A program made the position numbers and the translations under genes. From assembly GCA_937930025.1 (NCBI GenBank), contig CALGJW010000045.1, positions 1 through 43,596 on the forward strand: 43,596 nt of DNA. The letters are read 5' to 3'. Source of the stretch: an uncultured Saprospiraceae bacterium. GTDB lineage: Bacteria; Bacteroidota; Bacteroidia; Chitinophagales; Saprospiraceae. Numbering within the stretch: position 1 is the first letter of the stretch; the number at the start of each line of letters is the position of its first letter. A model generated the notes under the pieces. It made no database searches. It was not told the origin of the DNA and saw nothing but the letters and a program-made list of their open reading frames with translations. Below, in pieces: positions 6,233 through 42,245 of the stretch.

Positions 6233-7696
6233 TTATTGACGCAAAGCAATTATTTTTTCAACCCGCGCTTTAACCCAATTTGCCGCTTGCATTGATTCGT
6301 ATTTATTCAAAATATCATTCATCTCGCTCTTAATAAAATTTGGAGAAATAAATTTTTTCATCAACGTTCTACTGGCCCGTATCAAATTAGCAATTGCCAG
6401 TTTTTTATATTTGGATTGCCCTGATAATCGAGCAGTCCATTTCTCAAATGAGTCAAAGTAATTAAACAATAAGGATTGATAAGTTTTATCTATTAGCGCT
6501 AAGTCAAAATAGATCTGCATATTTAGAATGCGGCCCATAACTCGAAAGTGAGCAGACTTAAATTCATATTTAGAAAATAAATCAAGGCAGAATAACAACT
6601 TTTTTTGATAATAGGATGTATGAATCTTTGCCCAGCCTAAAGCATCGGTCCGGAAACTTTCAGAAAGATTACTACTATATTTATTTATAACCAAGTTGGA
6701 AAATTCGAAGTCACCAACAGAATTGCTCACCGCAATAATTCCGCTAAACGTGACATGCGTCAAAATTCCTTCATGTATTAGCAAACCTGTTTCTAATCCA
6801 AATTTATAATGAGGTAACATCTCTTTCAAATCCAAGCGTTTGGATTTCGCGAGAAAAGAAAAATCATTTAGAAATAAGTGATAATGAATTTTCCTTTCTT
6901 TATGATTAAGATGATTACACTTTTCATAAAAATATTCTAAACATTCCTTAAAAGCATGAGTCATATTCTTGCGCGTATAACTAAATCGCCGACGATATAA
7001 TTCAATTGACGGATGGGAATTTCCCTCAGCCATGGCTTTCCAATTTTCTAATTCCTTGGAATTATCTATAGGGTTATTTCTTAAAATTCGATTTCGAATT
7101 ATTGCATCAGAAATCAAATAAGCCTTTTCCACCAGAAAGATTGTGTCCAAATGATTTTTCATTTCTTCCACATAATTTGATTCCCCTAAGTATCTCGTGG
7201 CTTCTATAGGGTGTTGATAAACCCTCCGATTCATTTGATAAAGGAAGAATTGTTCTTCTAAGTTTGGCCTTTCATTTTTGTTGACGGACCCAAGGGCTTT
7301 TATGGCGCTTTTATAAAACCAATTATCTAAGCTTCGGGATTGGAATTCAATTGAAAGTCGTTCTTGATGAAGTATTTTGTCTTTAGCGAAATTGTTATAA
7401 ACAAGAAATTGTTCTGCAGCTAAATATCCTTCTGACAAGATATTATTCATACGGCGATCACTGTATTTTCCTTTTGGCTGAATTTTGCCAAACAGTTTTT
7501 CTTTTGTTAAGTTGGGCTGATCAAAATCAGGATGGTATTTAAGAGACTTACTTATAAGCGGAATTAGCGTCCTATTAGTGTTAAACCAAGGGGATTTTAG
7601 CCATACCTCAAAGCTATCCAGCTCTTCTGCGGAAAATGTCTTCAACAATCTAAAGAATTTTAGATTAGAAAGGATAGGTTTTTTGATGGTAATCAC
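6233..7696 (-). CDS. Uncharacterised 487-aa cytoplasmic protein
   Basis: I do not recognise the family. The sequence is rich in Lys, Phe, Tyr and Leu, looks almost wholly alpha-helical, and has no signal peptide or convincing membrane segment. The N-terminus (FFRLLKTFSAEELDSFEVWL, then a PWFNTN segment) resembles large hypothetical proteins I associate with Saprospiraceae-like genomes, but no function is known to me. The only start in the right place is GTG at 7694-7696. A TATATTTG promoter-like box and a 12-bp perfect inverted repeat lie immediately upstream. It is divergent from a tiny AraC-type HTH ORF. A helical-repeat scaffold is possible but not shown. Confidence 0.7.
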   Translation of the reverse strand: MITIKKPILSNLKFFRLLKTFSAEELDSFEVWLKSPWFNTNRTLIPLISKSLKYHPDFDQPNLTKEKLFGKIQPKGKYSDRRMNNILSEGYLAAEQFLVYNNFAKDKILHQERLSIEFQSRSLDNWFYKSAIKALGSVNKNERPNLEEQFFLYQMNRRVYQHPIEATRYLGESNYVEEMKNHLDTIFLVEKAYLISDAIIRNRILRNNPIDNSKELENWKAMAEGNSHPSIELYRRRFSYTRKNMTHAFKECLEYFYEKCNHLNHKERKIHYHLFLNDFSFLAKSKRLDLKEMLPHYKFGLETGLLIHEGILTHVTFSGIIAVSNSVGDFEFSNLVINKYSSNLSESFRTDALGWAKIHTSYYQKKLLFCLDLFSKYEFKSAHFRVMGRILNMQIYFDLALIDKTYQSLLFNYFDSFEKWTARLSGQSKYKKLAIANLIRASRTLMKKFISPNFIKSEMNDILNKYESMQAANWVKARVEKIIALRQ

Positions 7697-7722
7697 TTAA
7701 CAATAGAGTATTGATTATCAAT

Positions 7723-7730
7723 CAAATATA
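7723..7730 (-). promoter_or_regulatory. Candidate -7 box (TATATTTG) for the 487-aa gene
   Basis: On the minus strand this reads TATATTTG, matching the Bacteroidota TAnnTTTG -7 element, 26 bases upstream of the GTG start. No TTG is present at the expected -33 distance. That region falls inside the long inverted repeat at 7737-7770, which would fit a regulated promoter. Confidence 0.4.
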
Positions 7731-7736
7731 ATCTAT

Positions 7737-7770
7737 TTTACCATTAAATATTATATTTTTTAATGGTAAA
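7737..7770. promoter_or_regulatory. 12-bp perfect inverted repeat (candidate operator) in a divergent promoter region
   Basis: TTTACCATTAAA (7737-7748) and TTTAATGGTAAA (7759-7770) are exact reverse complements separated by 10 bases, giving 22-bp centre-to-centre spacing. The repeat lies 40 bases from the start of the minus-strand 487-aa gene and 71 from the ATG of the plus-strand mini-HTH ORF. It overlaps the spacer/-33 region expected for the TATATTTG box. It has no GC-rich stem or T-run, so a DNA-binding site is more likely than a terminator. Confidence 0.55.
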
Positions 7771-7841
7771 GTCTCAATATTGTACTTGTTGAAATCAAGG
7801 TATTATTGACATTTTTGAGACATAAATTTATTGCCCAAGTA

Positions 7842-7997
7842 ATGATTCACGCAATGGATTTTATTAAATTAGGGAAATATCCAACAGTCAATGGCTTATC
7901 AAAGGCTGTAGGTATATCTACAGTCAGTTATTTTATTAGGCAATTTGAAAAAGAATTTGGCCAAAAGCCAATGCATTTTTTAAGGGAGAAAGGCTGA
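7842..7997 (+). CDS. Mini AraC-type helix-turn-helix ORF (51 aa), possible remnant
   Basis: The peptide is essentially one AraC/XylS helix-turn-helix subdomain: a lead helix (AMDFIKLGKYPTVN), LSKAVGIS, then SYFIRQFEKEFGQKPMHFL, matching the usual SYFxRxFKKxFGxTPxxYR pattern. Normal AraC proteins carry two such units plus a sensor domain, and neither is present here. The frame extends back to TTG 7806, but ATG 7842 begins at the domain edge. It could be a genuine stand-alone DNA-binding peptide or a relic of a lost regulator. The motif residues are intact, which argues weakly against decay. It is divergent from the 487-aa gene across the 12-bp inverted repeat. Confidence 0.5.
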   Translation: MIHAMDFIKLGKYPTVNGLSKAVGISTVSYFIRQFEKEFGQKPMHFLREKG

Positions 7998-8206: not shown

Positions 8207-10015
8207 ATGAAATTAGCATTGGCTAATCAGGTATTGCTTGTCTTCTGTTGTCTTGCTTTGTCACCTACAGATTTATTGGCAAACTCCGCTCCTAACGAAT
8301 CAATGGGTAAACGTCTAGTTGAAGCAGAAAGACACCTAAATGCATTCAACAACGATAGCGCCAATATTGTATTAACTGAGCTAGTGGTTGAATTAGAAAA
8401 CAAAAAACAGCTTGACAGTCCGTTTGGAATAGAAGTTCAGTTAAGGCTTGCAGAAGCAATTGAAAAAGACGATCAGGATGAAATAGCCATTCAAAAATTA
8501 TTGGGCTTAATAAAAATTGCAGAAAAGAATAAGCAATGGTCCGCCTTGATCGAAACGCATCTCTCCCTTGCAAGGTTGTATGAAAAAATTAATCGCCCTG
8601 AACAATGCCTTGAACATCTGAGGCATTCTCGGAATTTAATAAAACGGAAAAATGTTGATCAATTGTATCCTCGTTTTGCAGTACGCATCTCTTCTTATCA
8701 TCGCATCTATGATAATCGAGATTCTTCTATTTTCTATGCAGAAGAAGTATTAAGAACGGCACCAATTTACGAAGAGCATAATCATGAGGCTGTGGGTCAT
8801 ATGCTATTAGGTATGCTGAAGAGCCAAGATTACAAAAAGTCTGTAGAACTTTTCCAAAAAGCAGGAAATACATTCACCGCTATCGGAGATTTTGCAGGCG
8901 CCAGTTATATTCACAATAATTTAATGCGTTTGCATTTTGAAAACCAAGCATTTGACCTTGCTTTAGCTGAAAGTAATTTAACCATCAAGGCTGCTCAAAA
9001 AGCCATCAAAAATGGCCATGAAGATGATCACGCCATTTCCGGTGCTTACAAATATCGTGGGAATATTTATCATCAACTTGGACAATCCGATTCTGCATGG
9101 ACTTACATCAACAAAGCCCATAAAATGGAAATGGAAAACATTGCTTCAATTAACCATTCAAAAGTTGTTGAAATAGATGCTCGCTACAACGATGAATTAA
9201 AAGAGCAACAAATAAAAGAGCAACAACTTATTATTCAAAAAGAACAGGAACGAAAAAGTAAAATTATTGCCTTTGTTTTGTTGATTTTGTGCTTTTCTGG
9301 GATTCTATTTTACTATTACTTGAGATTAAAAAAAGCGAACGAATTAACTTTACAACAAGCAGATCAAATTTCTAAAACTAACGAAGAACTTTCTTTTTCT
9401 CTTGAACAACAAATCATGTTGCAAGGAGAAGTACACCATCGTGTAAAAAACAACCTACAAGTCATTGTTAGTTTGCTCGAACTTCAAAAAGAAGACATAG
9501 AAGATGAAAATGCCAAAGCGAGCTTAGACACTATGGCTAACCGAATTTACAGCATGGCAGCCATTCATGAAATATTGTATCAGAAAAAAGGAGATGAATT
9601 GGTCAACCTACTGGATTACGCGCGGAACCTATGTAATCATTTTAAATCTTTTTCTGAAGCACAAAAGCAACCGATTTTTCAAATCGATATAGATGAAAAA
9701 TATTTTAACCTAGCTACTTTAATGCCGCTGGGAATCATTCTAAATGAATTATTAACTAACAGCTTAAAATATGCGGGTTCCATCACTGAGCAATTAAAAA
9801 TCAACCTTTCATTGACGAACGATGAAGACGGTTTTTGCTTAAGTTATCGTGATAATGGACCAGGGTTTCCTGCTGGAGTGATTGTAGAACGTGAAGGCGG
9901 ACTTGGAACCTATCTGCTAAAAAGCATGAGCAGGCAGCTCAGCGGAAGATTGGAAACCATTAACGATCGAGGGGCTGTTAGTCACATTTATTTTAAAGAA
10001 AAAAATAATTTTTAA
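8207..10015 (+). CDS. TPR-containing membrane histidine kinase (HisKA_2 type)
   Basis: A signal peptide (residues 1-25, ends DLLANS) is followed by a periplasmic helical-repeat region with TPR character (about 30-335), one membrane helix (about 352-372), a short coiled coil and a HisKA_2-type dimerisation domain with motif EVHHRVKNNLQVI. The phosphoacceptor is likely H410 or H411. The ATPase domain shows an N box (LNELLTNSLKYA, about 511), a G1 box (DNGPGFP, about 548) and a G2-like GGLGTYLL. The kinase is expected to phosphorylate the LytTR response regulator whose ATG immediately follows this TAA, with no bases between. The signal sensed through the TPR part is unknown. Length and layout match LytTR-paired kinases common in Bacteroidota. 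Confidence 0.88.
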   Translation: MKLALANQVLLVFCCLALSPTDLLANSAPNESMGKRLVEAERHLNAFNNDSANIVLTELVVELENKKQLDSPFGIEVQLRLAEAIEKDDQDEIAIQKLLGLIKIAEKNKQWSALIETHLSLARLYEKINRPEQCLEHLRHSRNLIKRKNVDQLYPRFAVRISSYHRIYDNRDSSIFYAEEVLRTAPIYEEHNHEAVGHMLLGMLKSQDYKKSVELFQKAGNTFTAIGDFAGASYIHNNLMRLHFENQAFDLALAESNLTIKAAQKAIKNGHEDDHAISGAYKYRGNIYHQLGQSDSAWTYINKAHKMEMENIASINHSKVVEIDARYNDELKEQQIKEQQLIIQKEQERKSKIIAFVLLILCFSGILFYYYLRLKKANELTLQQADQISKTNEELSFSLEQQIMLQGEVHHRVKNNLQVIVSLLELQKEDIEDENAKASLDTMANRIYSMAAIHEILYQKKGDELVNLLDYARNLCNHFKSFSEAQKQPIFQIDIDEKYFNLATLMPLGIILNELLTNSLKYAGSITEQLKINLSLTNDEDGFCLSYRDNGPGFPAGVIVEREGGLGTYLLKSMSRQLSGRLETINDRGAVSHIYFKEKNNF

Positions 10016-10717
10016 ATGCCATATAAGATATTAATAGTTGAAGACGAGGTTTTAATTGCTGACACAATCCAGCGTTATCTAGAAAGCAAAGGACATGAGG
10101 TCGCTGGTACTGCAATCAGCTTTGAAGAAGCCATAGAACAATATCATCAAAACAAACCAGATTTGGCCTTGCTGGATATTCGATTAAGCGGAACGAAAAA
10201 TGGAATAGACCTAGCTCATTTTTTAAATTCGCAAAAAATTCCAGTCCCTTACATTTTTCTTACCTCACAGATGGACACTTATTTCATTGACCGCGCCAAA
10301 GAAACTTACCCCTTGGGCTATCTTTCAAAACCAATACAAAAATATTCTCTTCTGTCTACGATTGAAATTTCAATGCACAATCTCATGGCATCCAAAACTA
10401 TAGAACCTACAATAAACTTAAATATTGGCTTTGAAAATCGAATGATAAAAATTAAAGACATTCTTTTCATTAAAGCGGATCATATTTATGTGAAAATCTA
10501 TCTAAGTGGTGGCGAAGAAGTCATGCTGCGTAGTTCAATAAAGGAAATTCTCGAAAAACTACCAGAGAAACAATTCGTGCAAACACATAGAAGTTTTGCC
10601 ATAAACACCAACCAAGTTGGCCAATGGGATAACGATGAAATTCAAATTCAAGGAAATTTCATTCCGTTGAGTAGATCAAGAAGAAAAATAGTACAGGAAT
10701 ATTTAACTTCCAACTAA
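10016..10717 (+). CDS. Response regulator, receiver + LytTR DNA-binding domain
   Basis: A receiver domain (about 1-125) has acidic residues E9-D10-E11, phosphoacceptor D54 (LLDIRLSGT), T83 and K105 (SKP). A LytTR domain follows at about 135-230 (IKDILFIKADHIYVKIYL, then QFVQTHRSFAINTNQVGQW, ending PLSRSRRKIV). The gene starts directly after the kinase stop, so the two form one unit. LytTR regulators bind two short direct repeats about 21 bp apart. Such a pair occurs at 11395-11425 ahead of the T9SS gene downstream, making that gene a candidate target. The gene ends 6 bases from a convergent neighbour with no visible terminator between. Confidence 0.9.
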   Translation: MPYKILIVEDEVLIADTIQRYLESKGHEVAGTAISFEEAIEQYHQNKPDLALLDIRLSGTKNGIDLAHFLNSQKIPVPYIFLTSQMDTYFIDRAKETYPLGYLSKPIQKYSLLSTIEISMHNLMASKTIEPTINLNIGFENRMIKIKDILFIKADHIYVKIYLSGGEEVMLRSSIKEILEKLPEKQFVQTHRSFAINTNQVGQWDNDEIQIQGNFIPLSRSRRKIVQEYLTSN

Positions 10718-41419: not shown

Positions 41420-42196
41420 ATGTCTGGAACTGGAAAAGTAGAGGAAGGAACTTATCGCGAGATCAAGACCATCCTCATATCTCAACCTAAGCCTGAAAGA
41501 TCCCCTTATTACCAAATAGAGCAAAAATATGGCGTCAAGATAGATTGGCGCCCCTTCATTCACGTGGAGGGAGTTGAAGAAAAAGAGTTTAGAAAAAAAC
41601 GGGTTTATCCTAATGATTTCTCAGCTGTGATCTTTACTTCCAAAACTTCGATTGATCATTTTTTTAGGCTTTGTGAGGAAATGAGAATCAAAATGTCTCA
41701 GGACACAAAGTATTTTTGTCTTTCTGAGGCCATCTCGAATTATCTCCAAAAATTCATCGTTTATAGAAAACGAAAGGTTTTTGCTGGAAAGCGATCCATA
41801 CTGGACTTAAAACCCTATTTGATGAAACACAAGGCGAAAGAAAATTTCTTTTTGCCTGTTTCTAATCTAGGTGCCAAGCAAGTTACCGCCTTCTTGAACG
41901 AACATGAATTTAACTGGAAAGATGGAATGATGCATCGAACAGTTTGTTCTGATCTTTCTGATTTGAGTGATGTCACTTATGATGTCTTGGTTTTCTTTAG
42001 TCCATTGGGAATAAATTCTCTTTACGAGAACTTCCCGACTTTTAAACAGAACCATACTCGGATGGCAGTTTATGGAAATTCCACAAAGCAATCCGTTTTG
42101 GATCATGGCCTAGACATAAATATTATGGCTCCCGCACCGGGGATCACTAGTATGGCTATGGCGTTGGAGGCATATCTGAAAAAATCTAACAAGTAA
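41420..42196 (+). CDS. hemD: Uroporphyrinogen-III synthase
   Basis: HemD closes hydroxymethylbilane to uroporphyrinogen III in haem and corrin synthesis. The Bacteroidota form is recognised from ILISQPKPERSPYYQIEQKY, VEGVEEKEFRKKR, FSAVIFTSKTSIDHFFRLC, LQKFIVYRKRKVFAGKR and YDVLVFFSPLGINSLYENFP. Length 258 is normal for this version. It follows the DUF4271 gene, and a strong terminator lies 20 bases past its stop. Other haem genes are not in the window. Confidence 0.92.
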   Translation: MSGTGKVEEGTYREIKTILISQPKPERSPYYQIEQKYGVKIDWRPFIHVEGVEEKEFRKKRVYPNDFSAVIFTSKTSIDHFFRLCEEMRIKMSQDTKYFCLSEAISNYLQKFIVYRKRKVFAGKRSILDLKPYLMKHKAKENFFLPVSNLGAKQVTAFLNEHEFNWKDGMMHRTVCSDLSDLSDVTYDVLVFFSPLGINSLYENFPTFKQNHTRMAVYGNSTKQSVLDHGLDINIMAPAPGITSMAMALEAYLKKSNK

Positions 42197-42215
42197 AATA
42201 AATTAACACTTCTTA

Positions 42216-42245
42216 AAAGCTCTGATAACTCAGAGCTTTTTTTTT
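42216..42245 (+). terminator. Rho-independent terminator of the DUF4271-hemD unit
   Basis: AAAGCTCTGA (42216-42225) pairs perfectly with TCAGAGCTTT (42230-42239) around TAAC, followed by a T-run to 42245. It begins 20 bases after the hemD stop. Confidence 0.95.

Follow-up and report, generated by a model that had tools for sequence, protein, structure and literature searches.

The 63-aa open reading frame (ORF) on the plus strand of the window, the whole stretch of 43,596 nucleotides analysed here, is the relic of a stand-alone AraC-type regulator of about 113 aa, from which a deletion took the start codon and the first helix-turn-helix (HTH). Facing away from it on the minus strand is a 487-aa gene of an unnamed Saprospiraceae family, and the two together would represent a decayed two-gene divergon made up of the family gene and the former AraC gene. 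The striking palindrome between the two genes and the mini-gene itself are products of decay; what carries the functional signal is a direct repeat, with which the palindrome shares part of its sequence. The features of the locus are given below in window coordinates, R1 being the model of the conserved promoter element.

6233 to 7696, minus strand: 487-aa gene of the unnamed Saprospiraceae family, with an uncertain start (GTG 7696 adjoins the start-proximal box)
7686 to 7692, plus strand: start-proximal box copy ATGGTAA, read from the sequence and overlapping a weak R1 match at 7679 to 7704 (E 0.13)
7723 to 7730, minus strand: candidate −7 box TATATTTG of the 487-aa gene, from the sequence and the consensus in PMC6847099
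7737 to 7748, plus strand: left arm of the inverted repeat, TTTACCATTAAA, not found in relatives
7753 to 7820, plus strand: degraded copy of the conserved promoter element (R1 match, 26.3 bits)
7759 to 7770, plus strand: right arm of the inverted repeat, TTTAATGGTAAA, containing the promoter-proximal box ATGGTAA (7763 to 7769)
7781 to 7788, plus strand: −33-like region TGTACTTG, where relatives have TGTCTTTG
7810 to 7817, plus strand: CATTTTTG, a −7-like box left from the araC promoter, read from the sequence and matched in relatives
7824 to 7997, plus strand: surviving 3′ part of the stand-alone AraC-type gene, covering the linker and second HTH, from alignment with relatives

A truncated AraC-type gene

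Both ORFs named in the preliminary description exist, the 487-aa one on the minus strand (6233 to 7696) and the small one on the plus strand (7806 to 7997). The 63-aa product of the latter matches HTH_18 over profile positions 33 to 79 of 80 (E 5e-4, 20.6 bits against a Pfam cut-off of 33.6), and the first of the two HTHs that make up the AraC DNA-binding domain of about 100 aa is missing from the alignment. Because the first HTH is absent and the match is to the second, the mini-ORF does not encode an intact AraC DNA-binding domain; what had been described as a single intact AraC HTH subdomain is AraC-like, as claimed, but consists of the second HTH only. Thirty further loci holding relatives of the 487-aa gene were searched over the 1.5 kb fetched, and 11 of them have a full-length stand-alone AraC-type gene of about 113 aa in divergent orientation; several of the loci in which none was found lie near contig ends or belong to more distant relatives. 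The divergent gene is sometimes not adjacent, standing about 1 kb away in L042, L080 and L088. All eleven proteins align over about 113 aa with both HTHs (that of L088 is cut by the end of the locus), and the two that were scanned both match AraC-type NCBIfam models. These relatives are like the stand-alone two-HTH domains of the AraC/XylS family, the size class of MarA and SoxS; the window copy, with its second HTH only and without the C-terminal Trp-Arg, is unlike them.

Alignment with the 11 relatives shows that the window peptide has lost its N-terminus together with the entire first HTH, a residue of the linker and two residues at the C-terminal end, the Trp of the final Trp-Arg now being a stop. 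In the window 6 nt lie between the −7 box and the first retained codon; in the relatives this distance is 182 to 480 nt, measured in the 10 of 11 whose −7 box was matched. The reading frame is kept over the retained half, as are nine of the 10 residues that are invariant in the relatives, so that the loss of AraC looks recent. The −7-like box CATTTTTG comes after the listed start of the ORF, TTG 7806, and a transcript from that promoter would therefore begin near 7822. The first in-frame ATG after the promoter would be 7842, giving a product of 51 aa, if the locus follows the promoter pattern published for Bacteroidetes, as set out in PMC6847099, which also supplied the −7 consensus. A 75-aa open frame upstream of 7806, into which the tblastn match of one relative extends, initially looked as if it could be aligned with the first HTH; this reading was dropped because the same stretch lines up with the promoter element.

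Although the retained half keeps its frame and nine invariant residues and the promoter boxes are partly kept, it is very improbable that the 51-aa product is a functional minimal DNA-binding protein with the palindrome as its operator. Both HTHs of AraC proteins normally contribute to DNA binding, all 11 AraC genes near relatives of the 487-aa gene are of the longer form, the C-terminal Trp-Arg is gone and the left arm is unconserved; moreover, two genomes of the same genus (G001 and G002) have an ortholog of neither AraC nor the 487-aa gene at the thresholds used. The preliminary description had offered a tiny dedicated DNA-binding protein or the relic of a larger regulator, and it is the relic that stands: relatives have a full-length AraC at the locus, an outcome that the description had itself named as refuting, and this goes against the tiny protein.

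A profile built from the 11 AraC proteins, with 11 candidates scored per genome, recovered 16 copies at or above 160 bits in 15 of 398 family genomes, the next score being 108 bits. Fourteen of these 15 genomes fall among the 38 that have a match to the 487-aa protein at E 1e-35; in three (G315, G366 and G205) the AraC copy and the 487 match are on different contigs. When 60 relatives were searched with the 63-aa peptide, the best matches, in G016 and G003, lay close to matches of the 487-aa protein. The same search also returned short open frames, for example one of 73 aa in G019.

The palindrome and the conserved promoter element

The two arms, TTTACCATTAAA and TTTAATGGTAAA, are exact reverse complements separated by a spacer of 10 nt, as first described, and the 34-bp repeat that they form (7737 to 7770) is the longest perfect inverted repeat of the window with spacers of up to 30 considered, which agrees with its having been singled out as the best palindrome there. 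An arm of at least 12 appeared once in 20 first-order Markov simulations of the whole window. The promoter-like box that was said to overlap the palindrome does not do so: TATATTTG occupies 7723 to 7730, and the palindrome begins only at 7737. As to the conservation of the arms among relatives, the right arm lies within a conserved element, but when the 45 bp to the left were searched for the box in inverted form, it appeared in none of 20 relatives, the window alone having it. The right arm is the promoter-proximal box of a family unit, the left arm is an inverted copy of that box peculiar to the window, and the palindrome is not the operator of the mini-ORF. That the left arm, and with it the inverted repeat as such, arose by chance in AT-rich sequence is possible, if somewhat improbable; its absence from the 20 relatives and the composition of the surrounding 109-bp intergenic region (19% GC) are what such an origin would predict, but an arm of 12 was reached in just 0.3% of 5000 Markov simulations of this region and the right arm forms part of a conserved element.

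This element has the consensus GTGGTAA-N11-TGTCTTTGGCA-N-TATTTATGGCATCTTTG. A sequence-only model, R1, built from 26 elements with the window left out of training, matches the window at 7753 to 7820, and this is the sole match at E<=0.01 in the window's own genome (12 candidates scored); when the window is taken alone, two weaker matches of 14.1 and 7.9 bits are also found. At E 0.01, 20 of the 26 ortholog loci match R1, seven of these lying outside the training set; in the other six (L082, L084, L086, L087, L089 and L090) it detects no element. Matches above 40 bits occur in 17 of 398 genomes, several of which donated training sequences; 13 of the 17 have an AraC ortholog and 16 have an ortholog of AraC or of the 487-aa gene. 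One genome, G219, has seven matches to the element and neither ortholog at the thresholds used. Several copies of the element in a few genomes, away from the divergon, suggest a small regulon.

It is unlikely that the stand-alone AraC itself binds GTGGTAA-N11-TGTCTTTGGCA, autoregulating and driving such a regulon. The element does precede araC in all 11 loci that carry it, L100 having an altered GTGGTAA part, and in a few genomes it is present at further loci upstream of secreted proteins; however, GTGGTAA and TGTCTTTG are kept in orthologs that have no AraC neighbour (L041, L091, L085 and L094), parts of the element are also kept in G032, where an AraC ortholog was not found, and another clade of the family has the same geometry with a different word. 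GGCA repeats near the −33 and −7 boxes were considered, from the sequences, as AraC half-sites and were not adopted; the GGCA motifs are lost in the window element and, judged by eye, in orthologs without AraC. Copies of GTGGTAA-N11-TGTCTTTGG away from the divergon are found at L131 to L145 (in G016, G267, G032 and G003), and several of these precede genes whose starts resemble signal peptides.

Box pairs and their spacing

The box of the right arm is one member of a direct repeat. In the window ATGGTAA is found at 7686 to 7692 and again at 7763 to 7769, 77 bp apart, the pair matching at 7 of 8, and the promoter-proximal copy lies 18 bp before TGTA at 7781. In nine relatives (L076, L040, L041, L078, L085, L245, L083, L075 and L096) GTGGTA or ATGGTA stands 3 to 7 bp before the start of the 487-like gene. 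Among 100 distinct members arranged in tree order, two clades present one geometry with different words, GTGGTAA in the window clade and TCAACAAA in the other; in both the word is located 18 bp before TGTCTTTG, and many members repeat it in the same orientation near the start of the family gene.

Such pairs occur in excess. Of 39 loci with the motif, 16 repeat the box near the gene's own start at 7/8 or better (permuted mean 4.5, maximum 11 in 1000), compared with 0 to 9 of 39 for control words taken from other offsets; with a looser motif 21 of 54 loci do so. A further 60 loci yielded the strict motif TGTCNTTG in only six, two of them with a pair, and the looser motif in 28, seven with a pair (permuted mean 1.2, maximum 5 in 2000). 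A motif-free test found an exact 8-mer pair in 40 of 158 loci, against a mean of 7.5 and a maximum of 14 in a crossed control in which start regions were paired with the upstream regions of different loci; the remaining 118 loci have no exact 8-mer pair.

The spacings of the pairs also cluster, lying within 1 bp of a multiple of 11 in 28 of the 158 loci (control mean 2.2, maximum 7). Grouped by word, 17 of 24 box groups fall near a multiple of 11 (p 1e-5), and if the two of these that lie at exactly half are excluded, 15 of 24 do so (p 3e-4). In the set of 60 loci taken alone, seven of 14 exact pairs come within 1 bp of such a multiple (p 0.06) and strict motifs are few, so that support for the spacing rule comes mainly from the first set. 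The best-fitting period is poorly defined, being 11.0 to 11.1, 11.25 to 11.5 or, with one spacing per group, 11.5 to 12, depending on the counting method; a helical spacing of 10.5 bp was a poorer fit than 11 to 11.5. A test on cluster representatives gave a non-significant R (P 0.80); as single linkage had merged 137 of the 158 loci, it was replaced by the grouping on box words. Taking the longest shared word per locus with at least three G/C had a mixed outcome. The small uncharacterised regulatory unit of the preliminary description can thus be retained as the 487-aa gene, the promoter element and, in part of the family, the direct-repeat pair, but not as a palindrome.

Divergent partners and type IX secretion

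Divergence from the upstream neighbour is usual among the family members studied, being observed in 39 of 40 compared with 59 of 212 other ORFs (41 members had flanking sequence, 40 of them with an upstream neighbour of at least 110 aa), and in 36 of 41 when neighbours down to 70 aa are counted. The entry for the window in this count is the sensor kinase at 8207, because the relic ORF is too short for the gene caller. The divergent partners are commonly cargo of the type IX secretion system (T9SS): the type A sorting domain (TIGR04183) is found at E<=0.01 in 23 of 33 complete partner tails, two of which are AraC proteins, versus eight of 60 control tails drawn from 148 eligible ORFs (Fisher p 8e-8). 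Most partners of family units share the C-terminal type A domain with T9SS cargo; the window unit has no such partner, its divergent gene being a relic, and 11 relatives of the window gene have a divergent AraC. In the window clade the divergent gene is AraC in many genomes, and the partner in G032 is a secreted protein whose tail is of the T9SS type; from this distribution we infer that AraC replaced the cargo.

Several other arrangements were observed around these genes. In the window (8207 to 10717) the TPR sensor histidine kinase (HisKA_2) is directly followed by a 233-aa ORF resembling its response regulator, and a perfect 11-nt inverted repeat with a 4-nt loop (42215 to 42240), terminator-like, lies just past an ORF ending at 42196. 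In L040, L041, L085, L086, L098 and L099 a convergent gene of AraC-type HTH is located downstream of the 487-like gene; in L040 this HTH is the end of a response-regulator-like ORF.

The 487-aa protein and its family

The window protein has no NCBIfam match and a single Pfam match, which at 13 bits stays below the cut-off of 21, and the commonest Pfam or NCBIfam domain matches among 40 family members are weak TPR-type ones, in at most eight members. A family profile from these 40 members identifies 15 copies in the window's genome. At E 1e-5, single-sequence searches detected the family in 48 of 60 relatives, and a thin draw across the phylum, with up to six candidates scored per genome, found a member at E 1e-15 in 10 of 247 genomes, including the window's own; a comparison of the 487-aa protein with plasmids gave no match. 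Named relatives include Saprospiraceae metagenome-assembled genomes, Lewinella, Phaeodactylibacter and the laboratory-grown Flavilitoribacter nigricans DSM 23189 (locus L254). A search of the literature on AraC, T9SS, RRNPP and promoters, in which few subscription papers were covered, returned nothing on the family.

The start of the 487-aa gene (region 7666 to 7696) is uncertain in the window because the position of the relatives' ATG is not an ATG here, and the listed upstream start is GTG 7696 beside the box. Given this loss of the ATG and the position of the GTG, the 487-aa gene in the window may also be decaying. In one relative (L072:7442-7909, G025) a 146-aa ORF has 52% identity over its first 91 residues; the middle of the protein is missing there and the element is still upstream.

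The predicted model of the full 487-aa protein has a mean pLDDT of 88.6. In a structural comparison of the whole protein the first five matches are Rap proteins (Z 12.4 to 13.7), with CNOT10 (12.0), NprR (11.8, seventh), separase (11.1) and AimR (10.7, from rank 14) following, Z values that helical repeats reach by arrangement alone. A profile search of solved structures matches consensus TPR proteins to positions 331 to 371. The predicted TPR-like solenoid may resemble that of the RRNPP receptors (Rap, NprR and AimR), but the hosts of the 487-aa family, in contrast to those of RRNPP proteins, are Gram-negative, and the eukaryotic solenoids CNOT10 and separase rank among the RRNPP matches.

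Folded alone, the N-terminal 152 residues give a pLDDT of 81.5 and a model without strands. For residues 20 to 102 DNA-binding domains account for eight of the first nine matches (281 chains aligned, best Z 5.1), namely CadC (5.1), Fur (4.8), AdeR (4.8), PhoB (4.6), SaeR (4.5), region 4 of SigA (twice) and SP_1288, the ninth being DOCK10. The matches to the CadC, AdeR, PhoB and SaeR domains suggest a likeness to the winged helix of the OmpR/PhoB type, from which the modelled domain differs in that Z is only 4.5 to 5.1, strands are lacking, the profile match is weak and Pfam gives no match. Foldseek returned nothing below E 0.001 for either the whole protein or the N-terminus, and its own ordering for the N-terminus places haemoglobins first, at E 1.6 and worse. 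Compared by hhalign with 12 OmpR-type domains recovered by pattern from 30 loci, the N-terminal profile gave p 0.0023 and a probability of 12% (controls p 0.2 and 0.27). No HTH family was recognized in the N-terminus by sequence or in Pfam, and a winged HTH at the level of sequence was set aside on this and on the 12% profile probability. The models nevertheless hint at a winged-helix-like N-terminus followed by a TPR solenoid, an architecture comparable to that of the SARP regulators (winged HTH plus TPR), and the structural matches would fit a DNA-binding N-terminus.

These features bear on what reads the boxes. It is doubtful that some other factor, such as a host regulator or sigma factor, does so and that the 487-like protein is a TPR protein that does not bind DNA, for example a chaperone, an anti-activator or a dosage partner of the secreted cargo. 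Such a role would agree with the failure of sequence searches to find an HTH in the family and with its TPR signal by profile, solenoids being commonly protein-binding; against it, eight of the first nine N-terminal structural matches are DNA-binding domains, and the words vary between groups of units with a constant geometry in the two clearest clades, whereas a lone host factor should have retained the same word throughout.

A proposed family of private switches

As the 487-like gene is common to all units, its product is the candidate binder of the boxes. We give about an even chance to the reading that 487-like proteins are self-contained regulators with private operators, a role in which binding itself is predicted. 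Each unit would comprise a regulator gene and a target gene facing apart, with two private copies of a box where these are seen; in part of the family one box lies near the start codon of the family gene and the same word is repeated upstream in the same orientation. The 487-like protein would use its N-terminal domain to bind its own pair of boxes from one side of the double helix, and cooperative or looped binding is suggested by two boxes that face the same way and are 6 to 10 turns apart. Once bound, it may activate, or loop off, the divergent promoter, usually that of a T9SS cargo gene. Binding at the box near the regulator's start codon would limit expression of the 487-like gene itself, and the target-side box is placed where an activator of a −33/−7 promoter would sit. 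The TPR-like domain might sense a ligand or a partner. In the window clade AraC would have taken the place of the cargo, and in the window it was later broken.

Extended to the whole genome, the proposal is more tentative and falls somewhat short of even likelihood: up to about 20 mutually insulated paralogous regulators per Saprospiraceae genome, each combining a winged-helix-like and a TPR sensor domain with a private pair of boxes set in whole steps of about 11 bp and controlling one divergent T9SS cargo, one of these having been swapped for an AraC that leads to a small regulon.

Bacteroidota have many proteins secreted by the type IX system, and the way in which they select those to be produced is, to our knowledge, a largely open question. 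If the proposed mechanism is correct, there would be a readable code between regulator and cargo, in which the N-terminus of the 487-like protein corresponds to the word of the box. The 487-aa family would then be a natural set of orthogonal regulators, and its units would provide orthogonal single-gene switches for the cell surface of Saprospiraceae.
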